64,000 nt of DNA, from IMG/VR virus record IMGVR_UViG_3300017605_001488, positions 1-64,000 of that record, one strand, 5' to 3'. Positions 1 to 57,127 of the stretch are shown here, in pieces. Below the pieces are notes generated by a model, which was not told the DNA's origin, did not search any database, and was given only the letters and a program-made list of their open reading frames with translations. The stretch's first letter is position 1; each line of letters opens with the position of its first letter. This stretch comes from a virus. Position numbers and translations under genes: made by a program.

Positions 1-732
1 GTCGAGCGGCAACAACCGCATCGTGAACCCGGGGATGTACACGAACCCCGCCGGCTCGCCGGCACCGTTGCGCAACACCTCGACGTACCCGTTGCCGAGC
101 ACTTCAAGGTCCTGGCGCAGCTTTCGGCGCAACGAAACGAAGCTCGTGTCCTCGGAACAGAATTCGAAGAAGTGCTCGAGCAGCGACTTCTCGACGCGCA
201 TCTCGTCGACGAGCTGGCGCTTCCGCAACGCGACCTCCTCGGGCGTCGGGATGGCGGGCAGGTTCACGACGGATGCCGGCTGCGTCGGGTCACCGCGCAT
301 TGCCATGCGTTCGATCGACATCGCCTGCGCGATCTTCTGGTCGGCATCCGATGCGTCGAGGTCGATGATGGGCTCGAACCGGTGACCGAACCCGTCGATG
401 TTCGTGGCGTACGCGTCGACGTTCTGACGGAGTGCGTTGCTGTGCTCGATGAGCGCCGCCAACGTCGTCGGGTTATACGGGGGTTCGATGGCACCCGCGA
501 GATGAAACCGGCGCTCGGCTTCGTCGACGCCGTGCATCACGTTGCTGGTTTGGGTCGATTCGTCGAGCCCGACGAGCCGCGCCTTGACAATCTCGGTGCG
601 GTCGTGATCGAGACCGCCGACCTGCTTGTCGAGCTCCGACGGCACGTGCACCCAATCCCCGTGACTCGGGGCATCGTTGGGCGGCGGCTCGGGGACGGCC
701 TGCATTACGCGTTCGTGCGATTCGCCGTTCAC
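1..732 (-). CDS. Portal protein, N-terminal part (cut by window edge)
   Basis: The first 244 codons are present; the rest lies beyond base 1. The portal forms the dodecameric ring through which DNA is packaged and to which the tail joins. Residues around 100-125 read PYNPTTLAALIEHSNALRQN, and the last visible part reads LGNGYVEVLRNGAGEPAG then FVYIPGFTMR. Both stretches are typical of HK97/PBSX-type portals. The GTG start overlaps the stop of the gene before it (GTGA). The identification rests on recognised sequence patterns, not on a search. Confidence 0.85.
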   Translation of the reverse strand, partial: MNGESHERVMQAVPEPPPNDAPSHGDWVHVPSELDKQVGGLDHDRTEIVKARLVGLDESTQTSNVMHGVDEAERRFHLAGAIEPPYNPTTLAALIEHSNALRQNVDAYATNIDGFGHRFEPIIDLDASDADQKIAQAMSIERMAMRGDPTQPASVVNLPAIPTPEEVALRKRQLVDEMRVEKSLLEHFFEFCSEDTSFVSLRRKLRQDLEVLGNGYVEVLRNGAGEPAGFVYIPGFTMRLLPLD

Positions 733-5160: not shown

Positions 5161-5718
5161 TCACCTCCGCGCTTTTTCTTGCGCGGTCGATGGGGCGTTC
5201 GCGAACAGCTTGCACGCGGGACAGTCCACGCCGTGGCGCGGGTGCGGGCACGGCACTGCCGTCGGCTTCGGCATGTGATGCTTCCACGGCGGGGGCGCGA
5301 ACGGGTTGCCGATGATGCGCATCTCGTCGCCAGCGAATTGGTGCGGGAACACCAGGTCGGAATCGAACTTGTGGCGCGTGAGCGCGTACGCCGTCGACAT
5401 CGCCGCATGCACATCGGGCGTGTTCGGGTGACCCACGAACGACATGAGCGTGTCGAACACGCGTTGGCTGCCCGCGTTCCAAACGGGCGGGGTGTGCGCC
5501 TCAACGATCTGGGAATCGTGGACGCGGGTGAGCTTCACCGCCTCGCGCCAACGTCCAGTCACTCGCATGATGCGCTCGATGTCCTTCGGGCGAACGAACC
5601 CGCGGTCACGCATTGTGACCGACGTGGCGCCGAACATCACCACCGTCGACCCTTGAGGCAAACCGAGGAGGTGGCAGAACGTGCGGCGCGTTCGGGCGGC
5701 GATCTTCCGTGTCGACAT
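5161..5718 (-). CDS. Hypothetical protein with C-terminal CxxC
   Basis: 185 residues from MSTRKIAARTRRTF, with a TGATG overlap with the gene before. The N terminus is basic. A Cys/His-rich segment near residues 160-172 (PCPHPRHGVDCPACKLF) could bind zinc. Not recognised otherwise. Confidence 0.6.
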   Translation of the reverse strand: MSTRKIAARTRRTFCHLLGLPQGSTVVMFGATSVTMRDRGFVRPKDIERIMRVTGRWREAVKLTRVHDSQIVEAHTPPVWNAGSQRVFDTLMSFVGHPNTPDVHAAMSTAYALTRHKFDSDLVFPHQFAGDEMRIIGNPFAPPPWKHHMPKPTAVPCPHPRHGVDCPACKLFANAPSTAQEKARR

Positions 5719-6134
5719 CAGAACTTGCCCTCGTTGCGGAATCGCATGATGTACGGGTGCACGCACGCGAGCACCGACACGCACACCGACCCGGCGTTCG
5801 CGTGGTGGTTCCGTTCAATCAACGCACGCACGAACCCGAGCAGCGGCAACCACTTGTCAGGGTCCGCGTGCGCGACCGCGGCGTCGAAGTCGTTGTGGCT
5901 CGCGCGCAACATGGCAGACCCGTCGGAGTTCGACACGTCCGACACATCGGACACGGTGCGGTGCTCGAGCTCGGCGATCCACTGGTACACGTACTCCCAC
6001 GCCTTCGTTCGCGCATCGAACAACGGCGGGATGCACCCGGGACCGTTCGCGAGAATCCCCGCCGGCGGTGCCGCCGCCAAGTCGTTCAACATCGCCAGAA
6101 TCGCCGCCGTATCTTCCGCCCAGCTCATGCCCAT
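5718..6134 (-). CDS. Hypothetical protein directly behind element P1
   Basis: 138 residues from MGMSWAEDTAAILAML. The ATG lies about 16 bases from the TATGAT end of the promoter-like element at 6151-6190, so the leader would be about ten bases, just enough for the GAGGTGA Shine-Dalgarno. The protein is acidic in its middle (VSDVSDVSNSDG) and helical elsewhere. Its role is unknown. It heads the operon running left to about base 1888. Confidence 0.7.
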   Translation of the reverse strand: MGMSWAEDTAAILAMLNDLAAAPPAGILANGPGCIPPLFDARTKAWEYVYQWIAELEHRTVSDVSDVSNSDGSAMLRASHNDFDAAVAHADPDKWLPLLGFVRALIERNHHANAGSVCVSVLACVHPYIMRFRNEGKF

Positions 6135-6150
6135 GGGTCACCTCGCGACC

Positions 6151-6190
6151 ATCATACGCATGATTGCAGTGATTGCAAGTATTGCAATCA
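6151..6190 (-). promoter_or_regulatory. Iterated TTGCAAT promoter-like element P1
   Basis: Read on the minus strand it holds three 9-bp-spaced TGCAAT units, then CATGCGTATGAT. TTGCAA and TATGAT are 16 bp apart, as in a sigma-70 promoter. It overlaps the last codon of the terminase gene and lies next to the start at 6134. Four more copies occur in the window. Confidence 0.75.
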
Positions 6191-7753
6191 TCCCACGACG
6201 CGCATGCCGACCCCGCCGCTCTGACGACGCTGGTTATCGAACACGCGGCACCCTTCACGCGCGAACCACGACGCCATCAACCGGTCGCCGGTGTGGTCCT
6301 TCGGGTTGTAGGTCAGCATCTCCCGAATCCACGCATCGATTTCCTTGTGCACGCGCAGGCCGCCCTTGACGAGCGAGCCGCCCTCGTTCGGGATGATCCA
6401 CTTCCCGGATGCAATCTCGGCGGCGACGCCCTGCACGCCCCATTCGGGGTGAGCCTTGTTTCGACCGGTGGTGAACGGTCGACACGTCGCCATCGTCAGC
6501 TTCTCGGCGAATTGCAGGATGTACTGCTGCGCGGCGTTGTTCTCGACGATGAAGATGCCACCGAACCGGTCGTACACGTTCTCGATGGCGTCGACGATCT
6601 CCGGACCGGCCATCTTGGCGGTCTCGATGTTCAACACCTGACGGAGCCCATCCGGCCACAACAGCACCGTGAAGATGCACGTGAGGTCGGCGGCCTCGGT
6701 CTTTCGTGACGCGAGGTCGACGCCGTGGAAGATGGCGAACCCTTCGTGCAACCGGGACAGCGCCTCGATCGCGTTCCCGAGCTCGTCGCGGTCGGTGATA
6801 CCGGACTCGAGCTCACGGATTAGGTCGTAGTCCCGTCCGAGCTCGATGCCGCGTTCGATCCATTCCTTCTTGAATCGCGCATCCTCCTCGTCGCGCGACA
6901 TGCACAGAAGCTGACGCGCGAACTCGAGCGGACCGAGCTCGATGCGCTTCTCCTCGATGCGGTCCTTGGGCCATTGCCCCGGCCACAGCAGATCGCCCGA
7001 GACCTCATCAACGATGGGGAACCGGAAGCTCTTGTATCGCTTGTTCGCGGCGAGCCGATGCAGCGCGTCCTCGGGGTGCCACGCGTTGCCCGGTGCCCAC
7101 ACGCGGGCGTTCGCCGTCAATCGACCGACCAGCGTGGACTGGATCCACTGCCATAGGTCGCGCCGCCCCGAATCGCGATCGACGTTTTCGTAGTCGAGGA
7201 TGTCGTCGAGGATGAGCAGGTCGATACGTGCGCCGAGGATGTTGCCGTGCACGCCGCACGCCTGCACGGATGGGTCCTTCGCGAGGATGGTGCGCTCGAC
7301 GGTGATGGCGTTCGCCGTCCACGGCAACGATTGGTCGCGCGCCGGCTTGAGGTCGGGAAAGATGGCGTGCAGCTCCGCCGACTTCTCGATGTACTGCGCG
7401 ATGAGCCGAACGATCTTCTTCGCCTGCTCGTTGGTGTTCGACACCACCGCCACGCGGAGGTTCGGGTTTTTCCCGAGCTCGTACAACACCCGCCCGACGC
7501 TGATCTGCGTCGTCTTCCCCGACTCGATCGATGCCCACAACACGACGCGGTCGTGGTCGTTGAGGATGTCGTGCCACTGATTGTGGAATGGCGCCTGCTG
7601 GACCGGCCGCCCGGCCTCGTCGCGCAGCACCATCTGATTGAAGAAGCTCGGGTCGTTGCGCGCGACCGCGAGGTTGATGTGGTGCGCCCGGCTATACGCG
7701 GTTTGCGCGTTGACCTTGCAAGCGACGGCGGGATCGGCGAGTGCGACGGACAT
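6188..7753 (-). CDS. terL: Terminase large subunit
   Basis: 521 residues, a usual length for TerL, the ATP-driven packaging motor and headful or site-specific nuclease. A Walker A-like loop lies at about 73-82 (WASIESGKTT) and Walker B at 179-184 (LLILDD). The RNase H-like nuclease domain has its first acidic residue at D346 (HGVDLAS), a second at E404 (VENNAAQ) and a third near the C terminus (DRLMASWF). The stop overlaps element P1, which drives the next genes. The ATG start has a plausible upstream gap. Confidence 0.95.
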   Translation of the reverse strand: MSVALADPAVACKVNAQTAYSRAHHINLAVARNDPSFFNQMVLRDEAGRPVQQAPFHNQWHDILNDHDRVVLWASIESGKTTQISVGRVLYELGKNPNLRVAVVSNTNEQAKKIVRLIAQYIEKSAELHAIFPDLKPARDQSLPWTANAITVERTILAKDPSVQACGVHGNILGARIDLLILDDILDYENVDRDSGRRDLWQWIQSTLVGRLTANARVWAPGNAWHPEDALHRLAANKRYKSFRFPIVDEVSGDLLWPGQWPKDRIEEKRIELGPLEFARQLLCMSRDEEDARFKKEWIERGIELGRDYDLIRELESGITDRDELGNAIEALSRLHEGFAIFHGVDLASRKTEAADLTCIFTVLLWPDGLRQVLNIETAKMAGPEIVDAIENVYDRFGGIFIVENNAAQQYILQFAEKLTMATCRPFTTGRNKAHPEWGVQGVAAEIASGKWIIPNEGGSLVKGGLRVHKEIDAWIREMLTYNPKDHTGDRLMASWFAREGCRVFDNQRRQSGGVGMRVVG

Positions 7754-11689: not shown

Positions 11690-12003
11690 CACGGCTCCTC
11701 GATCAGCTTGACGATGGCGGCGCGGATGACCGTCATGCCCGGCCCGCGTTCGTTGACGATGCGGACCGTCGTGCGCATCGCGTCTAGCCGCGCCTGCATC
11801 CCCGCCACCGTGCGCCCGCACCGCACCCAACCTTCGACCTTGTCGGCCATGTCCTTCGCGCCCCACCACTGCGCGAATGCCCGCGCCGCCATGACGATGC
11901 GATCCATCTCCGTGCCGACACGCGGTTGCGGCTCGCCGCCGTGGTCCGTGTTCGGCCAAATGTCAGTCCACCGGCTCACGGCTCTACGAATTGCGCGCCA
12001 CAT
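11689..12003 (-). CDS. Hypothetical protein
   Basis: 104 residues, beginning MWRAIRRAVSRWTDIW. Amphipathic and helical, with many Ala and Arg. Overlaps the upstream gene by 20 bases. No family known. Confidence 0.55.
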   Translation of the reverse strand: MWRAIRRAVSRWTDIWPNTDHGGEPQPRVGTEMDRIVMAARAFAQWWGAKDMADKVEGWVRCGRTVAGMQARLDAMRTTVRIVNERGPGMTVIRAAIVKLIEEP

Positions 12004-12373
12004 GATCGAGTACCGCCCGTGCTCCGCGGATGTGCGTCCTCGACAGCTGCGCCAACGACATCAACGCGCCCGCACGCTCGACGGGGTCGCCCTGTCGACA
12101 CCATCGTAGGATCTGCTCGATGCTTCGCTCGAGCTCGTCTTTCCCCTCACGCCCGTCGAACGTTCTGGACTCCACGGGCAACACGAGCGCGAGGTGCCGC
12201 ACGAGCGGATGTAACCAATCCGGCGCGTTGTGCTCCGATGCGGCCTGCGCCACCGGCGTCGTCGGGCGGTCCGAACAGAACGCGCGCCCCTCGGCGGCAC
12301 AACGACACGGCGTGCGAAACCGCATGATGATGTGTCGGGCGACATCCTCGCGTATGCTTTTCGCCAGGGGCAT
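11984..12373 (-). CDS. Hypothetical Cys-containing protein behind element P2
   Basis: 129 residues from MPLAKSIREDVARHII. The ATG lies only about seven bases from the -10-like hexamer of the element at 12380-12419, so its transcript may be leaderless; an in-frame GTG two codons upstream is also possible. CRCAAEGRAFC near residue 25 could bind metal. It is the first gene of an operon running left. Confidence 0.6.
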   Translation of the reverse strand: MPLAKSIREDVARHIIMRFRTPCRCAAEGRAFCSDRPTTPVAQAASEHNAPDWLHPLVRHLALVLPVESRTFDGREGKDELERSIEQILRWCRQGDPVERAGALMSLAQLSRTHIRGARAVLDHVARNS

Positions 12374-12379
12374 CGACAC

Positions 12380-12419
12380 ACCCTACGCATGATTGCGTTG
12401 ATTGCAACTATTGCGGCTA
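12380..12419 (-). promoter_or_regulatory. Iterated TTGCAAT promoter-like element P2
   Basis: On the minus strand: CGCAATAG, TTGCAATC, CGCAATCATGCGTAGGGT. It has the same 9-bp-spaced units and CATGCGTA core as P1, with a weaker -10 (TAGGGT). It overlaps the stop of the gene at 12417-12965 and abuts the start at 12373. Confidence 0.7.
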
Positions 12420-16686: not shown

Positions 16687-17445
16687 TCACCAGGGCTTGC
16701 GCGATGCCGTGTGCTCGTTGAAGTGCGCCGTGACGACGCGCCCCATCCCCTCGAACTCCTCGGTGAACGCGTAGATACCCTCGCTCGTCAGGATGGGGAT
16801 GGACACCTTCGACTCGATGTCGCGCCGAGCACACGGCGGCGGCAAGTAGATCAGCACCGATGCATGCGGCGGCGAGCTCCCCTCCTCGAACCCGTCGCCC
16901 ACATCGCGGTAGTATGCGATGCGCGACGCGGGAACACAGAACGGGAAATCGATGGGCGTGCGCCCGGTGCATTCGTTCTGCGCGACTTGCAGGATCTCCA
17001 GGCTGAACCCGACGAAGAACGCCGACGGCACCCGCAACGACTCCCACTCCGCGAGCAACTTCTGCCACCACCGTTTCTGCGACGACATCACGTCCTCGTG
17101 CACATGCCGGCACGGGACCCAATCGCCGCCCGGAGATTGCACGCACGACCACTCGCCCTTCGACGGCAGCGTGCGGTGCTCCTTTTTCACCGGACCGACG
17201 GTGATGCCTTGGTTGTCGCACTTGCCGCCGGGCGGGTTGAGGAACGTCCGCCCCGACCACGGCGTGAGGTACCCGTTGGTGGCCGCGGTGTGGAACGCCT
17301 CCGCGCGAACGATGTGCGCGTTGGCGCGTTCCGTCGTTGCCGGGTCGAGGTCGAAACCCCCGAGCACCGACCGCGCACGGTTGACCACGTCGGGCGGCGT
17401 GAAGTGCTCGGCGGACTCGCTGGAGTGGCGCACGTTGTCGGTCAT
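16687..17445 (-). CDS. Phage-type DNA N6-adenine methyltransferase (Dam, PF05869-like)
   Basis: 252 residues. It transfers methyl groups from S-adenosylmethionine to adenine in DNA. Visible features are FDLDPATTERANAH, typical of phage T1-like Dam enzymes, and the catalytic NPPG motif at 70-73 (FLNPPGG). A Cys/His-rich insert at 74-115 is longer than I expect for the family. Its likely role is protecting phage DNA from host restriction; the target site is unknown. Confidence 0.88.
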   Translation of the reverse strand: MTDNVRHSSESAEHFTPPDVVNRARSVLGGFDLDPATTERANAHIVRAEAFHTAATNGYLTPWSGRTFLNPPGGKCDNQGITVGPVKKEHRTLPSKGEWSCVQSPGGDWVPCRHVHEDVMSSQKRWWQKLLAEWESLRVPSAFFVGFSLEILQVAQNECTGRTPIDFPFCVPASRIAYYRDVGDGFEEGSSPPHASVLIYLPPPCARRDIESKVSIPILTSEGIYAFTEEFEGMGRVVTAHFNEHTASRKPW

Positions 17446-18035
17446 TGGTTCCCTCGTGTCAGGCCATGCTTCGACGGTTCCAACACCGCCGGCCGTGGTC
17501 GGGTATCGACCGGGGGGAACCCTTGCGCCGCGCGAGACTCATTCACGGTGATGGGCAATCGCCGATCGTCCACCAACTCAGCCGGGATACGTTGCACGTC
17601 CGGATGCCCCCACAAGTACTCCTGCCGGATGTGGTCGATGACGTGGCGCGCGTCGGTCAACGCCGACCCCACATCGATCGATACGGCCTGCACGATCGAT
17701 CGGGTGTGGTTCCGATGTCGCAAGCAATCCGCGTGGTCCTCGATGCGCCGCGAGCGGTCCAGCTGCTCGAACACCGTGTCGATGAATGCGTCGCCCGAGT
17801 TGCCGCCGCGCGCGTGCCGGATGCCCGTGCTACGCAACGTCGGACAATCCTCCCGACCGCAATCGATGCATCGAATCACGACCGGAGGCACCACGGCGGT
17901 GCGGTACGTCTCGAGGACGGGCGCGGGTCGGCGTCGTCGCGCGAGCCACCGGCGCACCCGTCGGATGCCCCACCGTCCGAGCTCGAGCACGAACGCCGCG
18001 ATCGGAATCGCCCACAGCAGGGAGTAGATGCTCAT
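17442..18035 (-). CDS. Membrane-anchored hypothetical protein
   Basis: 197 residues. Residues 4-20 (YSLLWAIPIAAFVLEL) form a single N-terminal transmembrane helix, followed by a basic stretch (RRVRRWLARRRRP) that would keep the rest in the cytoplasm. CIDCGREDC near 56-64 may bind metal. ATGA overlaps on both sides, with the sigma-like gene directly upstream; an anti-sigma or anchor role is conceivable but unsupported. Confidence 0.6.
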   Translation of the reverse strand: MSIYSLLWAIPIAAFVLELGRWGIRRVRRWLARRRRPAPVLETYRTAVVPPVVIRCIDCGREDCPTLRSTGIRHARGGNSGDAFIDTVFEQLDRSRRIEDHADCLRHRNHTRSIVQAVSIDVGSALTDARHVIDHIRQEYLWGHPDVQRIPAELVDDRRLPITVNESRAAQGFPPVDTRPRPAVLEPSKHGLTRGNQ

Positions 18036-18559
18036 CCGACCTCCGCAAGCACCGCCCGTGCGCGTGCACGCGTGCGCGAGATGCGGGACTTGAGCGTGCC
18101 CACCTGCACGCCCATCGACGCGCTCATCTCCTCGAGCGACTGCGTCGCCGCCGCGACGAGCAGCGCGTGCTGCGCATCGCCCAACACCTTGAGCGCGCGC
18201 ACGCGACGGGAGCGCTCGACGCCGTCGACTAGGACGCGTTCGGCGTTCGGGCGGTCATCACCGACCCGCGTGCCGTCCGCACCGCGATCGATGATGCGTT
18301 CGTGCCGGACGCCGCTGCGGAACTCCATGCGCACCGCGTTGAGCACCACCCGGTACAACCACGTGTCGAGCTTGGACCGCCCCTCGAACGCGACCCCGCC
18401 GTTGCGACGGGCATGGCGGACCACGGCCAACATCACATCCTGCGTCACGTCGTCGACGCTGTGGGCACCGAACTGCCCCGCGAGCGTGCGCACCCGGGGG
18501 TACATCGCCTGCGTCAACTTCGCGATCGATGCCCCGGCCAACGGATCCATGTTCGTCAT
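18032..18559 (-). CDS. ECF-like RNA polymerase sigma factor
   Basis: 175 residues from MTNMDPLAGASIAKLT. Region 2 is recognisable: HSVDDVTQDVMLAVVRHARR, then GRSKLDTWLYRVVLNAVRME. Region 4 near the C terminus reads SLEEMSASMGVQVGTLKSRI followed by SRTRARAR, a helix-turn-helix that would read a -35 element. Length and two-domain layout fit group 4 (ECF) sigma factors. It could redirect host polymerase to phage promoters, perhaps the repeated TTGCAAT elements. Confidence 0.85.
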   Translation of the reverse strand: MTNMDPLAGASIAKLTQAMYPRVRTLAGQFGAHSVDDVTQDVMLAVVRHARRNGGVAFEGRSKLDTWLYRVVLNAVRMEFRSGVRHERIIDRGADGTRVGDDRPNAERVLVDGVERSRRVRALKVLGDAQHALLVAAATQSLEEMSASMGVQVGTLKSRISRTRARARAVLAEVG

Positions 18560-18560
18560 T

Positions 18561-19190
18561 CTATCCCAGCGCCTCCATGTGGGCACCCTTGCGCGGGTTG
18601 GGTTCGTACTCGAGCTCGATGTTGCGGAACGTTTCGTCCAGCCACCGCGCCATCCGCGACGCGGTCGCCTGCAAGCCCGACCGCTGGGATAGACCGTTCC
18701 AATGTGCGCCGTCGATCTTCCACGTGTGTGCGAGCGTGTACGGCATCGCAGCAAGCTCGTGGACGTGCATGCCGGACAGCTCCGGCAGCATCAACCGGAA
18801 CATCGCCGTGAGCGCTTCGCGCCACTCGACACGGCGGCGGTCGCGCGCGAACAACGGCCACAGCTTCCGCTGCCGCGCGGTGCGAATGGTCGGCAGCATG
18901 TGCGTGCCGTGTTCCAACGCGACCCACAACGCGAACACCCACGCCTCGGCATACCACTCCCATCCGCCCTGCTCCACGTGCAGGCTATTCGACCGACGGG
19001 CGAACACGGCCTTGTACACGTACGGCTTCCCGAACGCGCGCATGTCCCGCGCCGCGTTCCCCGACACCAACAACACGTCGTCGCGCCCGGTGCGTGCATG
19101 CGCGTAGGTGCCGGCCGCCATCTCCACATCCTCCCGCATCGCGCGTGCGATGCCCTTGTGCTCGAGTTGCCAGGCGCGACTTCGCGTCAC
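18561..19190 (-). CDS. Hypothetical Trp-rich helical protein
   Basis: 209 residues from a GTG overlapping the upstream stop (GTGA); MREDVEMAAGTYAHA is an internal alternative. It has the aromatic segment GGWEWYAEAWVFALWVALEHG, then WREALTAMFRLML, loosely like the PxW-type group. It ends one base before the sigma-like gene. Unknown. Confidence 0.6.
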   Translation of the reverse strand: MTRSRAWQLEHKGIARAMREDVEMAAGTYAHARTGRDDVLLVSGNAARDMRAFGKPYVYKAVFARRSNSLHVEQGGWEWYAEAWVFALWVALEHGTHMLPTIRTARQRKLWPLFARDRRRVEWREALTAMFRLMLPELSGMHVHELAAMPYTLAHTWKIDGAHWNGLSQRSGLQATASRMARWLDETFRNIELEYEPNPRKGAHMEALG

Positions 19191-19854: not shown

Positions 19855-20229
19855 TTACGCGGTGCCGCGGTCAATCACGTCGACGCGATAGCCCGGGATC
19901 GCTACGCCGGGCGGGATGCGCAAGAGCTCTCCGAGCACCTTGATGGCGCGTGCCGGGTCGCACACGTCGCCGCACGTGAACACGTCCACGAACATCACGC
20001 CCGCTTCGGGGTACGTGTGAATGGACGCGTGCGACTCCGACAGCTCGACGAGGACGGTGAGCCCTTGCGGCTCGAACTCGCGCACGTGCGACGCGAGCAC
20101 CGTGGCACCGGCATGCCGACACGCCGCGACGAGCGACAGCTCGAGCGTCACCCGACTGTTCAACGTCTCGAACGGGACGCCGTGGAACTCGGCGAGGGCG
20201 TGTTTGCCGCGCGGGGGATGGTCGCTCAT
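19855..20229 (-). CDS. speD: S-adenosylmethionine decarboxylase proenzyme
   Basis: 124 residues, the normal length of the prokaryotic class-1b enzyme. It decarboxylates S-adenosylmethionine for spermidine synthesis. Self-cleavage should occur at E65|S66 (LSESHASIHTYPE), leaving a pyruvoyl on S66. H71 and C86 (VFTCGD) are the other processing/catalytic residues. All are intact, so the enzyme is probably active. The ATG overlaps the stop of the methyltransferase gene (ATGA), an unusual partnership. No spermidine synthase is visible. Confidence 0.93.
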   Translation of the reverse strand: MSDHPPRGKHALAEFHGVPFETLNSRVTLELSLVAACRHAGATVLASHVREFEPQGLTVLVELSESHASIHTYPEAGVMFVDVFTCGDVCDPARAIKVLGELLRIPPGVAIPGYRVDVIDRGTA

Positions 20230-26778: not shown

Positions 26779-26951
26779 GCGGGCGTGCCTCCATGGGGAC
26801 GGTGTCGGGTGCGAGCAACGCATTCCACGCCATCAACACCACCATCGATACCTATCGCATCATCGCGACCTGTGCTAGTGTGTACCGCATGACGTATTGA
26901 ACCCGGGGGATGCGCGAGCCTCCTCCCTCGATGGGTGGACCGGAGGAAGCC
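26779..26951. promoter_or_regulatory. Divergent intergenic region
   Basis: Separates the minus-strand block ending with the TerS-like gene from the plus-strand island and must carry outward promoters for both. No convincing -35/-10 pair is visible. Near the plus-strand gene, TCCTCC at about 26926-26933 can pair with GGAGGA (26942-26947), which would hide that gene's ribosome-binding site. A weak, gapped match to the CATGCGTA core occurs near 26885-26892. Confidence 0.4.
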
Positions 26952-27284
26952 ATGGGTAACGCAGCAGCCGTGATTGTGACGATCGAGCCCGACGGGATGC
27001 GCCAGGTGCACGCCGACCACGGTGGCCGCCCGGTGGCCGACGCCGAGCTCGAGGTGATGTTGGTGGGCCACGCCGAGGCCACCGCCGAACCTCCCATGCG
27101 CCCGACTACCGGATGGCGTGCGTGGGCGCGGCGTGGGTTCACCAGCGCGTTGGTCGAAACCATCCACGCGCTCCACGACGAGGGCATCCCCACGTCGTGC
27201 GCCATCAAGGCCCTGACTCCGCTCATCGAATGGGGGAAGCGCTCCTTCGGATCTCGCGAGGACCGCGCAAGACCTCGGGCATGA
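26952..27284 (+). CDS. Hypothetical protein, first gene of plus-strand island
   Basis: 110 residues from MGNAAAVIVTIEPDGM; GGAGGAAGCC precedes the ATG. An ATG 14 codons upstream is possible but lacks such a site. Residues up to about 40 look like a short beta hairpin (VIVTIEPDGMRQVHADH). The C-terminal half is helical and basic. Unknown. Confidence 0.6.
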   Translation: MGNAAAVIVTIEPDGMRQVHADHGGRPVADAELEVMLVGHAEATAEPPMRPTTGWRAWARRGFTSALVETIHALHDEGIPTSCAIKALTPLIEWGKRSFGSREDRARPRA

Positions 27285-27754
27285 GCAACCCCGACCACGT
27301 ACACACGTTCGAGAACGGACGGTGCCGCAGCTGCAACGCCCCCGACCCCATGGGTGACCTCGGGGGCGCGTTCGGCGCACTACCCCCCGGCATCACACCC
27401 GTCCGCGAAATCCAACCCGTCGCCATCGTCGGGGGTGCCCGCGCCACGGTCGTGACCTCCCACGCCCGATCGGCCGCACGGGGCAGGTACTACGTCGTCA
27501 CCAAGAACCCCGGCGATTGGCCCGGACACATCGTCGCCCGCGGATGGACCATCACCGACGCCGCGCCCATCCCCGACCGCGACCCCCTCGCCGCCATCCG
27601 GTACGCCATCAACGGCAAACCGGGACCGGACGAGCGCTCCGAGGCAGCCGCCCTCAACGCCGTGCGTGCCCACATCCACTCCCGTGCACCGGGGCTGATG
27701 CACATCCCCCGGCTCGAGAACGACGACCCGGTCATCGTCGAAACCTGGCTGTAG
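27281..27754 (+). CDS. Hypothetical protein with N-terminal zinc knuckle
   Basis: 157 residues, ATGA overlap with the gene before. HVHTFENGRCRSCNAP at about 6-21 resembles a half zinc ribbon. The rest is mixed alpha/beta with no known family. Followed closely by two paralogous genes. Confidence 0.6.
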   Translation: MSNPDHVHTFENGRCRSCNAPDPMGDLGGAFGALPPGITPVREIQPVAIVGGARATVVTSHARSAARGRYYVVTKNPGDWPGHIVARGWTITDAAPIPDRDPLAAIRYAINGKPGPDERSEAAALNAVRAHIHSRAPGLMHIPRLENDDPVIVETWL

Positions 27755-27757
27755 CCC

Positions 27758-28093
27758 GTGGGCGCCATCCGCGGCTCGGCCATGCGCGACACGTACGACG
27801 TGTCGTTCGAGCGTTCCATCGTTCGACAGATACGGCTGAGCGGCGACCTGCGGAACACGCCCGGACGATTCCACATCCCGGTTCCGCCGCTCAAGCACCT
27901 CGACGACATCCGTGGGTTCGCGGAGAGCTTCCTCGCCGCCGGAAAGCACCCCCGCGATTTCCTCGCACCTGGCTCCTCGTACATCACCCCCCTCGAATCG
28001 TTCGTCGGCATGGACATCACCCGCGAGAACATGATGGCCGTTCGTGCCATCATCGACCTCGTCACCGACGCCGCGATGAGCACCGAACCATGA
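27758..28093 (+). CDS. Hypothetical protein, paralogue of the next gene
   Basis: 111 residues from a GTG; an ATG eight codons in (MRDTYDVSFERSIVRQ) is equally plausible. Its segment ESFLAAGKHPRDFLAP, then FVGMDITRENMMAVRAII, aligns with AYLAAGLEPAGFVPV and YVGMDNTPENVAAVRATI in the following protein. Tandem duplication is the simplest explanation. Function unknown. Confidence 0.6.
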   Translation: MGAIRGSAMRDTYDVSFERSIVRQIRLSGDLRNTPGRFHIPVPPLKHLDDIRGFAESFLAAGKHPRDFLAPGSSYITPLESFVGMDITRENMMAVRAIIDLVTDAAMSTEP

Positions 28094-28572
28094 GCACCCA
28101 CCCCGGACCCAAGGACTACACCCCGATCGACTTCGCCGGGATCGAACAACGCCTGGTCGCCACCATCCGGAAGTTCGGCGACGGGCATGGGTTGCGCACG
28201 CTGCACACGCTCGACGACTTCCTCGAGCACGCCCCGGCCTACCTCGCCGCCGGACTCGAACCCGCCGGATTCGTACCGGTGCACATGGTCGAGTTCCACA
28301 TCGCGCTCGCCCCGTACGTGGGCATGGACAACACCCCCGAGAACGTCGCCGCCGTGCGCGCCACCATTCACCTGGTGCACGCCGATCTGCAAGCCAACAT
28401 CGGATTCAAGCAGCTCGGCACGGTCACCGGACGCACATCGTCGTCCAAGCCCAACATCGCGCAGGTGATGCGCGGCCGTGATGCGCTGTTCACCAAGGAC
28501 GAGGCGCAACGGTTCGTCGAGGACTTCGAAGACTTCGTCGAGGGGCGCACACAGCGCGTGCTCAAACGTTGA
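28090..28572 (+). CDS. Hypothetical protein, paralogue of the previous gene
   Basis: 160 residues from MSTHPGPKDYTPIDFAG, ATGA overlap. It shares the AAG-x2-P-x2-F and VGMD-x-T-x-EN-x2-AVRA pattern with its neighbour and adds a charged C-terminal region (RFVEDFEDFVEGRTQRV). Ends at a convergent terminator. Unknown function. Confidence 0.65.
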   Translation: MSTHPGPKDYTPIDFAGIEQRLVATIRKFGDGHGLRTLHTLDDFLEHAPAYLAAGLEPAGFVPVHMVEFHIALAPYVGMDNTPENVAAVRATIHLVHADLQANIGFKQLGTVTGRTSSSKPNIAQVMRGRDALFTKDEAQRFVEDFEDFVEGRTQRVLKR

Positions 28573-28601
28573 CGGCCGGCAACCCGAAAGGGTCCCGGCC
28601 G
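28573..28601. terminator. Bidirectional hairpin terminator between convergent genes
   Basis: CGGCCG pairs with CGGCCG and ACCC with GGGT around a GAAA tetraloop. It lies between the stop of the plus-strand gene (28572) and the stop of the minus-strand gene (28621), where a shared terminator is expected. No U-run follows. Confidence 0.6.
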
Positions 28602-28620
28602 CCATGGCGTTGCTCGAGGT

Positions 28621-33440: not shown

Positions 33441-34223
33441 TCACGGGAGCCCGACCAGCTTGCCCATCTGCGCGGACAACGACCAATCGGGGTGCGCGAG
33501 CACGAACCCGATGCACCGCTCGAGGTAGTGGTTGTAGAGCGTCCCACCAATCATCCGCGTCTCGTCGTCGACGGCGTCGCCCGCACCAAGCCGTAGGTGC
33601 GTGAGCTGCACACTGTTGGGGTCGAGCAACGGGTCCTGCGGTGTGACGAACAACCGATCGTACTTGCCCGCACGCGCCAGCGCGACGAGCTCGTCGTCGG
33701 TCCATCCGTCGGTCGGGCGGTCCGGCGATGCCCCCGGCAACACCACGCGGAGCTCGTGCGCGGTCGCGATGACGAGCTTGGCACCGCGCTTCGGACTGAC
33801 GACGACGTGGTCGAATACGTGGTACGCACCACCGCCGGCCCACGTCGTCGGGGTGCACCCGTTGGTCTCGACGGCGATGCGCCACCCATCCAACCGCAAG
33901 TCGTTGATGAGGTATCGATCGACCTGCAACAGCGGTTCGCCGCCGGTGAACAAGCACCACCGCGGGCGGTTGTCGCCGATTTCGGTGGACGCCGCCCACG
34001 CACCATTCATCACCGCGATGAGGTCGTCGTGCTCAACGATGGTGCCACGCTGGAAGTCGGCATCACACCACTGCGAGCACGGGCTCGGCCCATCATCACG
34101 ATGCAATGGGTGCCCGTCCCACAGGTTGCACCCGGCGAAGTGCACCGACACCACACGCGAGCCGGCGCGGGCGCCCTCGCTCACGAGCGTGTTGTTGACC
34201 GCTTTGATTGCATACGACGACAT
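33441..34223 (-). CDS. queE: QueE-like radical SAM enzyme (7-carboxy-7-deazaguanine synthase)
   Basis: 260 residues; TAAGGAGGG precedes the ATG. QueE makes CDG, the first deazaguanine in preQ0/queuosine synthesis and in 7-deazaguanine modification of phage DNA. Landmarks are FAGCNLWDG, a cluster loop with C32, C49 and C53, FTGGEPLLQVDRY and VETNG. The Cys spacing (X16, X3) is longer than the CX14CX2C I expect for QueE, so it may be a divergent subfamily. No queC, queD, folE or dpdA is visible in this window. Confidence 0.82.
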   Translation of the reverse strand: MSSYAIKAVNNTLVSEGARAGSRVVSVHFAGCNLWDGHPLHRDDGPSPCSQWCDADFQRGTIVEHDDLIAVMNGAWAASTEIGDNRPRWCLFTGGEPLLQVDRYLINDLRLDGWRIAVETNGCTPTTWAGGGAYHVFDHVVVSPKRGAKLVIATAHELRVVLPGASPDRPTDGWTDDELVALARAGKYDRLFVTPQDPLLDPNSVQLTHLRLGAGDAVDDETRMIGGTLYNHYLERCIGFVLAHPDWSLSAQMGKLVGLP

Positions 34224-44895: not shown

Positions 44896-46292
44896 GGCTT
44901 GAGCCCCTTGAGCGCCACAGCACTGTCGTACGCGGTGGCGTACGGGTCGTTGTCGTAGAACCCAAACGGCGCGATGCGCGCACACGCGAAGTCGGTGGGC
45001 AACGGTCCGATGGTTTGCCCGTTGCGACCGAGGCGGTTCTTGAACACGTGCAGCTCGACTTGCTCCTGGTCGCGGAGGTTGATGGACACCCCGTAGTCAG
45101 CGGTGCGCGGCTTGCCCATCGAGTCCGCGGTGTCATCGATGTCGAGCTTCTTCGTCGCCTTGTTCTTCCCGTCGCCGCGTCGGGACTGCGATGCGGTCGC
45201 CGCCCATCGCTTCCCGTCGCGTGCCCACACGAACATGTCCTCGTACACCGACCCGCTGGCCGTGTAGCTGTTGTCCTGCGCGCGTTCGCTGATTCCTTGG
45301 GCGCGCATCTTGTCCGCGTAGTCGACGACCAGGACATCCATCTGCGCGCCCCACGCCTGCTCCGTGTCGCGAATCCATCCGCGCAACGTGCCCATCGTGG
45401 TCGCCTTCGGAGTGAACGACTTGACGGTGATGGCGCCCATCCCCGGCCGCCCGAAGATTTCATCGAGCCGTTCGATGGCACCGCACGCGTAGGGCTCCTC
45501 GATGATGGCGTCGATCGGGATCCCGGTGAGGCATGCCTTGACGCGTGCAAGCCAGATCGGCACCGGGAGCTCGAGCGTCGCCACGCCAACGCGGAACCCT
45601 TGCAGGCACGACGCTGCCGCGTGTTGCGTGAGCGACACGGACTTGCCGCCACCGGACGGCGCGAGATAGTACAGCAACGTCCCGCGCATCCACCCACCGC
45701 CGAGCGAATCATCGAGCTCGAGGATTCCCGACTTCAGACGTTGGATGGTCTTGAGCCGTTCGAGGTGTTCAAAGCTACCCGGCCCGATGGCGACACCGAC
45801 CGTGTCCTCGTACTCGCCGAGGTGCTTGGCCTTCTCCAACCGTTGCATCGCACCGTGCACGTCACCGCGCCGCTGGTATTCCGACAGCCCGGTCTCGATC
45901 GCTTCGCGCTCCATGCGCCGCTTGAGGATGGGCACGACCTCGGCGAGCAGCGCCTCGTCGGATACCATCGCACCGGCATCCTCGGCGGCATCGAAGTAGT
46001 CCGCGACCGCGACGATCTGATCGTGCGTCACCTTCCCTTCGGACATCCACCGCCGCAACCGTTGCATCACCACGACGGTGCTCTCGGGACCGGTGCCGCG
46101 TTCGCGCGCGACGATGGCCGCCGCTTGGATCGCGAGCTTCGCCGACGGTGCTGCCAAGCAATCGGCCTCGACCTCGACACCGATGAGCGACCACGTCCGC
46201 GGGTGGCTGCACAGCACATACACGAGAGCGCGCTCGAACGTCGGGTCGAAGTTGAACGGCTCGCGACTACGTTTGATTGGAGCAACGTTCAT
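44892..46292 (-). CDS. DnaB-type replicative helicase
   Basis: 466 residues from an ATG sharing a base with the previous TGA. The N-terminal helical domain (about 15-110) matches the DnaB primase-interacting region. The RecA-like domain has Walker A at 211-219 (APSGGGKSV), Walker B (VLVVDYAD), ATASQSRRGDG (sensor) and VFKNRLGRNG (arginine finger region). It unwinds DNA at the fork. Confidence 0.9.
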   Translation of the reverse strand: MNVAPIKRSREPFNFDPTFERALVYVLCSHPRTWSLIGVEVEADCLAAPSAKLAIQAAAIVARERGTGPESTVVVMQRLRRWMSEGKVTHDQIVAVADYFDAAEDAGAMVSDEALLAEVVPILKRRMEREAIETGLSEYQRRGDVHGAMQRLEKAKHLGEYEDTVGVAIGPGSFEHLERLKTIQRLKSGILELDDSLGGGWMRGTLLYYLAPSGGGKSVSLTQHAAASCLQGFRVGVATLELPVPIWLARVKACLTGIPIDAIIEEPYACGAIERLDEIFGRPGMGAITVKSFTPKATTMGTLRGWIRDTEQAWGAQMDVLVVDYADKMRAQGISERAQDNSYTASGSVYEDMFVWARDGKRWAATASQSRRGDGKNKATKKLDIDDTADSMGKPRTADYGVSINLRDQEQVELHVFKNRLGRNGQTIGPLPTDFACARIAPFGFYDNDPYATAYDSAVALKGLKP

Positions 46293-47746
46293 CACCAGAC
46301 CCACTCCCCCGCGTACACCTTGTTGGCCAGATCGTCGTTCATCAGCTTGGCGGCTTCCTGCACCGACGCGATGAGTCGCGCCTGGTGCTCGATGGTCAAC
46401 ACCCCGGACACGCACGCACTGATCTGCTCGTCGGTCGCGTCACCCGGCAACGTGCGCAACGCGCGGTCGAGACGCGCCTGTCGTTGCATCAGCTCCCGCC
46501 CCGCGTCCGAATGCAACACACGCCCACCGCTGTAGTCGCTCGACACGGAACGAAACCACCCGCGCCGCTCCTCGATGCGCTTCGGCGAGAACGCCCACGG
46601 GATGGGCATGGCTCCCTTGTTCTCGTGCTCGAGCCACACGTCCATCGAGAACGCACACCACGCCGCCGGCGCGATGTCGTGCGCGATGAACACCTCGGCG
46701 GCCTTCACCAACAACCCGAAGTGCTTGCTTTGGGTGATGTGCCCGGCACGTTCCGACCGGAACGACCAACACCGCTTCTTCGTACGAGCCTCGACGGCAC
46801 CTTCGAACCACCGTTGGAGCAAGTACGCCTTGCGTCCGGGGATGTCGGCGGGGTCGAGCAACGGTGGGTTTGGGATCATCACGGGGGCAAGGTTCAGCAC
46901 GGACACGGGACGCGGCACGAGCGGGTGCCGTTCACCCAACGCGACGGGATGCAACCGAATCGGGGCAACGTTCCCGCCGAGCGAAGCCTCGACGGTGTCG
47001 TCCTTACGCGCGAGCTCGGTAGCTTGCCGGATGACGGCCGCATGGTCGCGACGAGCCGGACGGTCGGGGGGTCGGGGCATCGATGTCGTCCTCTCCCCCG
47101 AAGGGGGAAAACGCGGCGCGCAGTCGCCGCCTTCATTCTCCGAAGGAGAATGAACGAGACCAAGAGACTGAGAATGTAAGAAAGCTGGGGGTGCGTTTGA
47201 TTTCCGGTCGGGGGTGTCTTTGAATTCCCCCGGGGGTGCCTTTGATTTCGACCCCACGGGCCGTCCGGCACCCGCGCGGGCACCGCCGCGCTTCTCCGCG
47301 TTGAGCCACACCAACGTCGTCCGTGGGATGGCACACCGTCCGCTCGCGACGACGTACGGCGGGCACCCGAGCACGCGTCGCACGTACATGAGTTCTTCCC
47401 CGTGCCGCGTCGACACCCGCCGCCATCCAACGGGCACGACCAACCCCGCCCGCACGAGCCGGTCGATGGCGTCCTTCGCCATCGCGTACTTGATGCCGTT
47501 CCGCTCGAGGTCAGACCGTTGCATGAGCAGTACGCCAGTGCGCGGTTCGCGTCGGGCGCACATCAACGTCCACACGAGGTAGGTCGTGTTCCCCAACCGG
47601 CGCATCAACCGCGCCCGATCGACGCTCATGCTGCCGGCGACCACGCGCGCCAACGACGGCGGGATTGCTGCCGATCGCGCGTCGGGGGGCACTCCGCCCT
47701 GCGGCTGCCGAGTCGGCGCCGCTTGTGACTTCGCCGGTGCGTTCAC
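46292..47746 (-). CDS. Putative replication initiator or helicase loader
   Basis: 484 residues from a GTG. Residues about 40-135 form a winged-helix-like unit (YLVWTLMCARREPRTGVLL, MAKDAIDRLVRAGLVVPV). A low-complexity middle follows, with GGARAGAGRPVGSKSKAPPG. The C-terminal 200 residues are helical with WSFRSERAGH. Its position upstream of helicase and primase fits an origin-binding or loader protein. An internal ATG (MSVDRARLMRRLG) is a possible start. Confidence 0.6.
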   Translation of the reverse strand: MNAPAKSQAAPTRQPQGGVPPDARSAAIPPSLARVVAGSMSVDRARLMRRLGNTTYLVWTLMCARREPRTGVLLMQRSDLERNGIKYAMAKDAIDRLVRAGLVVPVGWRRVSTRHGEELMYVRRVLGCPPYVVASGRCAIPRTTLVWLNAEKRGGARAGAGRPVGSKSKAPPGEFKDTPDRKSNAPPAFLHSQSLGLVHSPSENEGGDCAPRFPPSGERTTSMPRPPDRPARRDHAAVIRQATELARKDDTVEASLGGNVAPIRLHPVALGERHPLVPRPVSVLNLAPVMIPNPPLLDPADIPGRKAYLLQRWFEGAVEARTKKRCWSFRSERAGHITQSKHFGLLVKAAEVFIAHDIAPAAWCAFSMDVWLEHENKGAMPIPWAFSPKRIEERRGWFRSVSSDYSGGRVLHSDAGRELMQRQARLDRALRTLPGDATDEQISACVSGVLTIEHQARLIASVQEAAKLMNDDLANKVYAGEWVW

Positions 47747-48067
47747 CGGGGACTCGTGTGCTGAAGAAGCGCTCGCAGGGTGCGCTGGAACGCCGGGTGG
47801 TGAGTTCGACTAACGTGCGGTTCGGACGAACACCGCACCGTCACTCGCCCACGCCGTCCCGGCGAACGCTTCCTCAGTACACGAACATGTCCGGATGATT
47901 GCACGGGGCGGTCCGATCTGCCAAGCGGGCGGTGCGGCGGGTTTCCAGTCCCGTCGCGGTGCTCGACATGGGGCACTATGCATCAGCCTAACCCCGCAGC
48001 GCAACCGTCGCGAAACCAGCGGCTTTTCCCGATGAACGTGCGTGCACGCATGAACACGCGCCCGGTG
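47747..48067. other. 321-base gap upstream of putative initiator
   Basis: The longest stretch without an assured gene. It contains one weak open frame (47810-47983) and a single truncated copy of the TGCAATCAT unit near 47885-47904 without the full CATGCGTA core. A promoter for the replication operon, or an origin, would be expected here. I see no AT-rich unwinding element or iteron array. Confidence 0.35.
47810..47983 (-). CDS. Possible small ORF (doubtful)
   Basis: 57 residues from an ATG with GGGGTTAGG ahead of it: MHSAPCRAPRRDWKPAA, then WQIGPPRAIIRTC. Codon phase looks weakly coding, but composition is also compatible with a non-coding leader. Listed because the gap is otherwise empty. 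Confidence 0.25.
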   Translation of the reverse strand: MHSAPCRAPRRDWKPAAPPAWQIGPPRAIIRTCSCTEEAFAGTAWASDGAVFVRTAR

Positions 48068-49558
48068 TCAAGGCCACTTTTCGATCGTGGTCGTATGCCC
48101 CTCGCCGAGGTAGGCATCGCGCCGCTCCTTCGTGTGGTGCTCGAGCCACTTGCACCCCGGGTGGATTCCGAACCCTTCGTGGCCCATGAGCTTCGCGGCC
48201 TCGCGGCAACCGCACCCGGTGTCGGCGATGTCGAACACCTCGAACGTGTTCTTGATGACGTTCCCCGCGGCGTCCTTCTCGACACGCATGCCGCGACCGA
48301 TTCGCTGCAACGTGGCGATGACGGACTTGCCGCCGCTCGCAACGACCACCGATCGCAGCTCGGGCACGTCCATGCCTTCTTGAAACACGACCGAGCACAC
48401 GATCACATCGAGTCGCCCGGCGACGAGGTCGCGCACCTGGCGCTGCCGCTGCTCGGTGTTGTGCGTGCCCCACACGAACGCCGCGCGCAGCCCGGCATTC
48501 CACAACGCGCGCTCGATGGCCTTGCCGTGCTTGACTTCCTTGACGAACACGAACGCCGGCTTCTCGGCCTTGAGCGCCGCCTGGACCACGACCTTGTTGC
48601 GGTGCGCACTGCCGACGATGGCCTCGCGGTATACCGCGGCCCACGTACGCGCGTCGCTGCGTTGCGGGACTTCGACCATGCGAATGTGTGGCTTCGCGAG
48701 CACACCGCCATCAATGAGCTCCGACGTGCGGGTACGGTGAATGATCGGGCCGAGCGTCGCGATGGCCAACATCGATCGGCGGTCACCGCGCGCGAGCGGC
48801 GTGCCCGACAACCCCACGCGGTAGTACGCCCGCTGAAGGTTGTGCACGACCGACCAGAACGAATCTGCTGGCAATACGTGGCACTCGTCGACGATGACGG
48901 CCTCGACCTCGTTGAGCAGGTTGAACGCGCGCTGGTCACCGCGCTTGAGGGCGGCGGCGATGGTTTGGAACGTTGCGCACGTGAACCGGTCACCGACGGA
49001 CCATTCGCCCTCGCCGATGCGCCCGACCATCTTGCCGGTCAACCGGTGCATCGCCTCCTCGGCCGCGGTGAACATCGACCCGTCGAGCGCGCGCTGCTCG
49101 TAGCGCCGCGCCGCCTGGTCCATCAACGTCGACCGGTGCACAACGAACAACGTCTTGCACCCCCACACGCGCACGCATCCGACGGCGAGCTCCGTTTTCC
49201 CCGCGCCGGTCGGCTCCCACAAGATGCCCACGTCGTGCTTCACCACGGTACGCACGGCGCCGTCCTGGTAGTCGCGCAGCCACGCAAGGTCCGCGTTCGG
49301 ATCGAACCCCGGCGGGCGCACGCGCTTGTCGACGATCTCGACCTGCATGCCCTCCTCGCGTGCGGCATCCACGACCATCGGCACGAACCCCGACGGGAAC
49401 GCGTCCGTCAGGATGTTGTACATTTGGATCTGCTTGCGGGATGACCGCCGGTGGTGCGCGGTCGGATCGGGGAACGCTAGGTACTCGCGCACGAACCGCC
49501 GTTCGTCGTCGGTGCCCCGAATCACGCGGCTGTTGAGGATGTGCCGTTCGATCCACAT
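48068..49558 (-). CDS. SF2 DNA helicase (UvsW/XPB-like)
   Basis: 496 residues from an ATG sharing a base with the previous TGA. Motif I reads WEPTGAGKTEL (about 115-125), motif II VIVDECHVLP, motif III GLSGTPLARGD and motif VI QRIGRGMRVEKD. The N-terminal 90 residues resemble the damage-recognition part of UvsW/XPB. Likely roles are branch migration, fork rescue and recombination-dependent replication. The C terminus holds CGCREAAKLMGHEG, an unusual Cys/His tail. Confidence 0.88.
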   Translation of the reverse strand: MWIERHILNSRVIRGTDDERRFVREYLAFPDPTAHHRRSSRKQIQMYNILTDAFPSGFVPMVVDAAREEGMQVEIVDKRVRPPGFDPNADLAWLRDYQDGAVRTVVKHDVGILWEPTGAGKTELAVGCVRVWGCKTLFVVHRSTLMDQAARRYEQRALDGSMFTAAEEAMHRLTGKMVGRIGEGEWSVGDRFTCATFQTIAAALKRGDQRAFNLLNEVEAVIVDECHVLPADSFWSVVHNLQRAYYRVGLSGTPLARGDRRSMLAIATLGPIIHRTRTSELIDGGVLAKPHIRMVEVPQRSDARTWAAVYREAIVGSAHRNKVVVQAALKAEKPAFVFVKEVKHGKAIERALWNAGLRAAFVWGTHNTEQRQRQVRDLVAGRLDVIVCSVVFQEGMDVPELRSVVVASGGKSVIATLQRIGRGMRVEKDAAGNVIKNTFEVFDIADTGCGCREAAKLMGHEGFGIHPGCKWLEHHTKERRDAYLGEGHTTTIEKWP

Positions 49559-52471: not shown

Positions 52472-52689
52472 CACGGGCACGGCGGGACCTCGTCGCGCTC
52501 GATGCCCATGGTGCCGTCACACGTCGGACAGTTGCGCATCTCGACGGTGTCGATGTGACCGAGGATGGGCAACGCGTGCCATTGGGCGAGCGTGAACACA
52601 CGCCCGCAACACGTGCACTTCTTGAATGCACCGCCCGCCCGGGCGAGCTCGAGCTCGCCCGGGATGGAACGAAGGCGGAGTGCAACCAT
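52471..52689 (-). CDS. Small zinc-ribbon protein
   Basis: 72 residues from MVALRLRSIPGELELA (TGATG). KKCTCCGRVF and RNCPTCDGTMG form a four-Cys ribbon of the common CxxC-x(n)-CxxC type. No other domain. Coupled to the DUF6744-like gene. Confidence 0.65.
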   Translation of the reverse strand: MVALRLRSIPGELELARAGGAFKKCTCCGRVFTLAQWHALPILGHIDTVEMRNCPTCDGTMGIERDEVPPCP

Positions 52690-53561
52690 CACAGCACCAA
52701 CCCGGGTGCGGCGGACATGTCGATCGGATTGAGCTTGAGGATCGCGGTGGTGAGCTGGGCGCGCAGGTCGTCGATGCCCGCGTGCAGGGTCTCGAGCTTC
52801 CGTCCCATCAGGTCCTCGTACGCTTCGACCTTCGCCTTGATGTCGTCCATCGTCTCGACGCGGTGTTCGAGCGCGCGTTTGCCGAGCGACGCGTCCGTGA
52901 GCTCTCGTTCGAGCACGTCGGCGGCGCGCTTCGCTTCTTGCGTGATGGCCTCGGTGAGCGCGTCCATCGCTTCGCCCGACCGCATCGCGGGCACACACGA
53001 GATCACGTGCGGTGATGCTTCACGCAACGCCTTGAGCATGCGATCCCACATCGGGACGGCGAACCGCGGCACGAAGTAGATGCCGCCCGTGTCACGCAAC
53101 CCGACCGCCGAGCACTTCGGCATCATCTCGACGAGCCACGCGGACACGTCGGCCTGAATGATGTTCGACAGGTAGTGCGTGAACCGCGCGCGCAGCGTCT
53201 CCGCCTGTTCGTGGTCGTCGGGTTCGATGCCCAACCGACCCACCTCGTTGATGGAGACCTTGATGTCGGTCTCGTACACGAGGTCGTCCCCATCGATCGA
53301 TTCGTGTTCGTTCACGACGAGCCACGTGCCCGTCTTCAACCGACGGGTGAGCCGGTGCGCGCCGCGCTGTTCCGCGACCGCGCGTTGCATCGCGACCGTC
53401 GGGGTCGGGTCGTTCGGCAGCCACTCCTCGTCGAGGTTGTTGTTGGCCCACGCCGTGCGCAGCCGGCCGATGTCCATGCCGCCCACAAGCCTCCACCACA
53501 CAATCACGCCTGCGGTGTCGACGTTTTCCATCACCGCAATCAAACCGTGGTCGTTCGCCAT
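52689..53561 (-). CDS. DUF6744-like phage protein
   Basis: 290 residues from MANDHGLIAVMENVDT; AAGGAGG precedes the ATG. The layout recalls the phage DUF6744 group from memory: WWRLVGGMDIGRLRTAW, LPNDPTPTVAMQRAV, ADVSAWLVEMM, RDTGGIYFVPR, then a coiled-coil C terminus with DVLERELTDASLGKRAL and KVEAYEDLMGR. Family function is unknown. Element P3 lies 60 bases upstream, placing the gene in the same regulon as the MoxR/VWA pair. Confidence 0.65.
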   Translation of the reverse strand: MANDHGLIAVMENVDTAGVIVWWRLVGGMDIGRLRTAWANNNLDEEWLPNDPTPTVAMQRAVAEQRGAHRLTRRLKTGTWLVVNEHESIDGDDLVYETDIKVSINEVGRLGIEPDDHEQAETLRARFTHYLSNIIQADVSAWLVEMMPKCSAVGLRDTGGIYFVPRFAVPMWDRMLKALREASPHVISCVPAMRSGEAMDALTEAITQEAKRAADVLERELTDASLGKRALEHRVETMDDIKAKVEAYEDLMGRKLETLHAGIDDLRAQLTTAILKLNPIDMSAAPGLVL

Positions 53562-53620
53562 GTCGCGCCTCCTTGGCAGTCGACACCACGCGCGCACGAG
53601 CGTCGGGTGTCGACCTGCCC

Positions 53621-53660
53621 ATCATACGCATGATTGCACTGATTGCAAGCATGCCGGTGC
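53621..53660 (-). promoter_or_regulatory. Iterated TTGCAAT promoter-like element P3
   Basis: On the minus strand: CTTGCAATC, GTGCAATCATGCGTATGAT, identical to P1 through the -10 half; the third upstream repeat is degenerate. TTGCAA and TATGAT are 16 bp apart. Expected leader to the gene starting at 53561 is about 50 bases. Confidence 0.75.
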
Positions 53661-56211: not shown

Positions 56212-56256
56212 GGTGGTTCTCCTTCGGGTCGATGTGGTGGGGGCAACCCCCGACAC

Positions 56257-56296
56257 ATCATACGCATGATTGCGGTGATTGCAAGTATTGCAATGA
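56257..56296 (-). promoter_or_regulatory. Iterated TTGCAAT promoter-like element P4
   Basis: On the minus strand three 9-bp-spaced units (ATTGCAATA, CTTGCAATC, CCGCAATCA) precede TGCGTATGAT. Nearly identical to P1 over 40 bases. Directs transcription toward the MoxR ATPase gene. Confidence 0.78.
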
Positions 56297-57035: not shown

Positions 57036-57087
57036 GGTGATTTCCTCGATTCGGGTTTGGGCTCACGGGCTCGTGAGCGCAGACCCA

Positions 57088-57127
57088 TGTATACGCATGC
57101 TGCCGAAGATTGCAACTATTGCGATTG
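57088..57127 (-). promoter_or_regulatory. Iterated TTGCAAT promoter-like element P5
   Basis: On the minus strand: CGCAATAG, TTGCAATC, then CAGCATGCGTATACA. The unit nearest the -10 is replaced, but the TTGCAATC-N8-CATGCGTA core is kept. It lies in the divergent gap 57036-57199. A leader of about 50 bases would precede the start at 57035. Confidence 0.7.

Follow-up and report, generated by a model that had tools for sequence, protein, structure and literature searches.

The gene at 18032–18559 of the window (the whole 64,000-nt stretch analysed, itself part of a 96,875-base IMG/VR record of a tailed phage) encodes a 175-aa protein that profile and sequence comparisons confirm as a genuine sigma factor of the ECF type, divergent in sequence and encoded by the phage. 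On balance, we consider it probable that this factor would act in mid-infection, moving host core RNA polymerase to promoters that most likely serve the packaging and structural genes of the phage.

The reading frame has an ATG start and runs from 18559 to 18032 on the minus strand, and its codon usage matches that of the other genes of the phage (log-odds 64). The first-pass annotation had assigned sigma regions 2 and 4, in that order, to the product, and comparison with ECF profiles bears this out. The NCBIfam model TIGR02937 (sigma70-ECF) scored 46.8 bits (E 2.4e-12) against a curated cut-off of 42.9, and Pfam Sigma70_r2 scored 32.3 bits over residues 17–83, above its cut-off of 24. Pfam Sigma70_r4_2 stayed below its cut-off (15.7 bits against 25.7, residues 141–166); region 4 is spanned by the full-length TIGR02937 match and contains a GTLKSRISR motif. 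In addition, phrog_1740, "RNA polymerase sigma factor", matches residues 15–171 (E 2.7e-14), and all 13 matches from a PDB sequence search were sigma factors, with mycobacterial SigE at the top (4e-8). Because family matches over curated cut-offs are joined by phrog_1740 and by the PDB sequence matches, the sigma identity stands well above chance.

The protein is built of region 2 followed by region 4, with no recognisable domain between them. Regions 1.1 and 3 appear to be absent, given a length of 175 aa and no match to region 3 among the Pfam and NCBIfam matches listed. The core-binding signature of region 2 reads DDVTQDV, the region 2.3/2.4 signature reads WLYRVVLN, and the helix-turn-helix of region 4 is GTLKSRISRTRA; the protein thus retains the signature residues of the helix-turn-helix as well as those for core binding and promoter melting. 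Six residues (D37, Q40, W67, L126, E144 and R159) were invariant in an alignment with five other sigma factors. There are also departures from the usual form: region 4.1 is about two residues shorter, and, because the protein starts late, region 2 lacks the greater part of its first helix. An AF2 model from single-sequence input was all helical (pLDDT 70), and its three top PDB matches were AlgU and RpoE, with weak E values of 0.015–0.06. The protein fell under the cut-off of every NCBIfam subgroup listed. It is the sole match to sigma region 2 in the 96.9-kb record, where no second sigma factor was found, and neither the gene nor its neighbours matched a defence system.

The setting of the gene is consistent with a role between replication and late expression. 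Since the final 141 bases of the record repeat its first 141 (window 1–141 and L003 14735–14875), the record probably represents a genome that is complete and circularly permuted, ~96.7 kb in size; its class in IMG/VR is linear. Almost all genes are oriented leftward, and a tail sheath gene points to a contractile tail. On the circular map the sigma gene lies between the replication genes and the terminase gene, after which portal, head and tail genes follow across the circle, and this would be the place of a middle gene. Coordinates are collected in the table.

Table. Features of the window and record discussed in the text (positions in window numbering, continued along the record beyond 64 kb)
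Feature	Position	Strand	Remarks
P1, TTGCAA-16-TATGAT	6150..6187	-	16 nt before gene 5718-6134, directly after terminase gene
Terminase large subunit	6188..7753	-	packaging/late genes begin; downstream of sigma gene
P2, TTGCAA-16-TAGGGT	12379..12416	-	6 nt before ATG of gene 11984-12373
197-aa protein	17442..18035	-	membrane helix at N-terminus; CxxC (residue 56); 4-base overlap with sigma stop
ECF-type sigma factor gene, 175 aa	18032..18559	-	region 2 at ~residues 12-83; region 4 at ~residues 120-172
209-aa protein of unknown function	18561..19190	-	just upstream of sigma gene, same gene string
Methyltransferase/ParB-like/AdoMet decarboxylase group	19.8-21.8 kb		
Endolysin	32 kb		
Replication genes	35-56 kb		ATPase, nuclease, helicases, DNA polymerase, SbcCD
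P3, TTGCAA-16-TATGAT	53620..53657	-	before gene 52689-53561
P4, TTGCAA-16-TATGAT	56256..56293	-	before ATPase gene 55063-56211, head of replication genes
P5, TTGCAA-16-TATACA	57087..57124	-	before gene 56367-57035
Portal, head, tail sheath, tape measure	75-97 kb		

Other features of the window were observed in passing. Three genes upstream of the sigma gene, an S-adenosylmethionine decarboxylase gene (19855–20229, minus strand; Pfam AdoMet_dc, 98 bits) adjoins DNA methyltransferase and ParB-like genes. No gene was called in almost 1 kb at ~47080–48068; close to the downstream end of this stretch, before gene 46292–47080, lie three similar AAxTCAAAxxCACCCCC repeats and the hairpins CATTCTCCTTCGGAGAATG and CCCCCTTCGGGGG, and the region gave no Rfam match and a fold z-score of -1.7. 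Gene direction is doubtful at 26793–28605, where plus-strand genes were called in the same stretch as a 371-aa minus-strand ORF (27490–28605) that has no family match.

In the mechanism we favour, the sigma gene would be expressed in mid-infection by leftward transcription that passes from the replication genes across the accessory region. The protein would then replace the host sigma factor on host core RNA polymerase, and the resulting holoenzyme would be guided to a group of promoters, most probably in the phage genome. Likely targets would lie in the packaging and structural part that follows the sigma gene on the circular map, as with gp36 of phiEco32 and gp47 of phage 7-11. Precedent has in fact been demonstrated in both phages (PMC8948821; PMC4281155), whose sigma factors bring host polymerase to late promoters (PMC8948821). 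A search for a phage single-subunit RNA polymerase gave no match in the record, nor did it give any in the control genomes, and it therefore does not establish that such an enzyme is missing. Against the proposed role stand the sub-threshold Pfam score for region 4, the shortened region 4.1, the truncated start of region 2 and the existence of relatives without a recognisable sigma factor.

At 185 aa, Salmonella phage 7-11 gp47 (SaPh711_gp47) is likewise a small sigma factor that contains regions 2 and 4, but it has no detectable pairwise similarity to the 175-aa protein (blastp E 5.7). phiEco32 gp36 is coded among middle genes, as the sigma gene appears to be here, and it belongs with other Kuravirus sigma factors to phrog_1740, the same PHROG as the 175-aa protein. 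Unlike that protein, however, gp36 shows no homology to region 4 and recognises a promoter with a single element, tAATGTAtA, and the pairwise match between the two covers only 16 residues. Sequence kinship to the late sigma factors of phiEco32 and 7-11 does not appear to extend beyond the general sigma fold.

A five-copy element (P1–P5) had been proposed in the first-pass annotation as the target of the sigma factor, within a possible switch of host polymerase to phage promoters. Precedent from phiEco32 and 7-11 upholds the idea of a switch; the tie to the element fares poorly, since the best copies rank among the strongest sigma-70-type promoters of the phage and copies also stand before replication genes. 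The element itself is almost certainly functional. All five copies are noncoding and on the minus strand, each no more than ~60 bp upstream of a minus-strand start (placement p ~3e-8), and 21 of the 38 columns are invariant, including TTGCAATC, a distance of 8 nt, and CATGCGTA. A transcript from P2 would be leaderless, given the 6 nt to the ATG. Scored with an E. coli-like sigma-70 matrix, written from general knowledge and possibly not that of the host, P1, P3 and P4 reach 14.9 bits each, which places all three among the top four sigma-70-type sites of the window, while P5 and P2 score 10.3 and 8.4. The rest of the record holds no such site of at least 13 bits, and shuffled windows average 0.43. 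P3–P5 precede replication genes or neighbours of these genes. To judge from its sequence, then, the element is more likely the main host-type (sigma-70) promoter of the phage than the target of the 175-aa protein.

The opposite reading, that TTGCAATC-N8-CATGCGTA is a -35/extended -10 promoter of this very sigma factor and drives both replication and late genes, is a tentative possibility. Both boxes and their 8-nt distance are kept in five of five copies, more strictly than the -10 hexamer, which varies (TATGAT, TAGGGT, TATACA). Nine-base direct repeats inside the element (TTGCAATAC TTGCAATCA CTGCAATCA) look operator-like, as for a putative DNA-binding protein. These repeats of TTGCAAT, together with boxes that are stricter than the hexamer, point to either an additional DNA-binding factor or an atypical sigma factor at the element. 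Searching IMG/VR for exact occurrences of both boxes returned seven single matches, as chance predicts, no copies were seen in relatives that lack the sigma factor, and a 16-nt spacer also occurs in the sigma promoters of phage 7-11. The 7-11 promoters, however, read GTAAtg-(16)-aCTA and differ from the element, whose hexamers and spacer come closer to the housekeeping sigma pattern than nearly everything else in the phage. An ECF-type AAC motif at -35 is absent. From 17 to 35 kb, no element copy lies upstream of the sigma gene, and a sigma factor required for the replication genes would first need another promoter itself. Scoring for sigma-70-type sites found none at 15–35 kb either, so the sigma gene has no promoter candidate there.

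Another way to understand the gene is as an auxiliary gene taken from a bacterium, one that reprograms the host rather than phage genes, in the manner of the sporulation-type sigma factors of Bacillus phages (PMC9429907). The distribution of the gene gives this some footing. A terminase search retrieved seven relatives of the phage, and two of these, G003 (64.7 kb) and G006 (88.1 kb, probably complete because its first bases recur near its end), have replication genes in common with this phage and in the same order. Neither gave a sigma match at E 1 or below. The accessory region that holds the sigma gene, from terminase to the homologue of gene 33441–34223, is ~26 kb in this phage against ~8 kb in G003. 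Absence from two large relatives and location in an expanded region indicate a lineage-specific gene, probably acquired by this lineage. Relatives that share the replication genes and have no recognisable sigma factor imply that late transcription in the group needs none. The protein also keeps ordinary bacterial ECF signatures, and its nearest matches are both bacterial and phage. Recent transfer from a host is not indicated, however. Close relatives of the protein were sought in IMG/VR, phages and bacterial genomes, and only two matches came back, both bacterial and at 26–27% identity, in a bacterial-genome scan that detects close relatives only. Both neighbours of the gene, upstream and downstream, are likewise without relatives in IMG/VR. 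We regard the auxiliary-gene reading as unlikely and continue to favour redirection of host polymerase to phage genes.

The statement that ECF sigma factors are rare in phages holds. E. coli RpoE was matched by 105 of 50,697 phage records (tblastn), many of them from crAss-like phages and one a 1.9-kb record with 99.5% identity to RpoE that is likely host DNA, and phiEco32 gp36 was matched by 100. Sigma homologues of any kind occur in fewer than 15% of more than 4,000 phage genomes (PMC9429907). ECF-like sigma factors in phages are uncommon, then, yet already known. An ECF-like architecture is shared with SigE of Microcystis phage MaAM05, RpoE of Sinorhizobium phage phiM9, Tunturi_5 and the crAss-like phages, all of them tailed phages, as here, but identity to the 175-aa protein is at most ~25% over long stretches. 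Bacterial SigE, RpoE and AlgU likewise have regions 2 and 4 and the same signatures; the 175-aa protein differs from the bacterial ECF sigma factors in scoring under the NCBIfam subgroup cut-offs and in having no recognised anti-sigma partner.

Linked anti-sigma factors are common, though not universal, among ECF sigma factors, and the membrane-anchored protein of the next gene downstream had been put forward for such a role, in which the two genes would form a sigma/anti-sigma pair. Adjacency, a 4-base overlap, a single N-terminal hydrophobic helix and a tail bearing CxxC speak for the pairing. The overlap carries little weight, since it is commonplace in this phage, where 25 of the 94 adjacent gene pairs share it. 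The 197-aa protein matched no anti-sigma domain or other family in the Pfam, PHROG and NCBIfam profiles, and it lacks the HxxxCxxC zinc anti-sigma motif. Its layout also speaks against the part: the membrane helix comes first, followed by arginines and then the tail, and does not sit behind an N-terminal anti-sigma domain. A predicted structure (pLDDT 46) gave nothing usable beyond the membrane helix. With these results the anti-sigma proposal is unsupported, and a pair of this kind is quite unlikely.

A degenerate or inactive sigma-like protein, for example a decoy that occupies core polymerase but initiates no transcription, would explain the weak region 4 and shortened N-terminus. This is very unlikely, given that the frame is intact, the codon usage resembles that of coding sequence and the signatures of regions 2 and 4 are both conserved. 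Least credible of all, and highly improbable, is a compound reading in which a lineage-specific ECF sigma factor, unlike the phiEco32/7-11 type in sequence, reads TTGCAATC-N8-CATGCGTA as a new two-box promoter before late as well as replication genes, while a novel type of anti-sigma factor, encoded by the next gene, keeps the sigma factor at the membrane.

What is new here is a very divergent sigma factor; the phage ECF-type kind to which it belongs is already known. Phage sigma factors are clean tools for studying the viral takeover of host RNA polymerase, and the well-marked set of five promoters offers a small, testable transcription circuit. The finding of a divergent sigma factor in an uncultivated, high-GC phage extends the range of phages in which ECF-like sigma factors are known.
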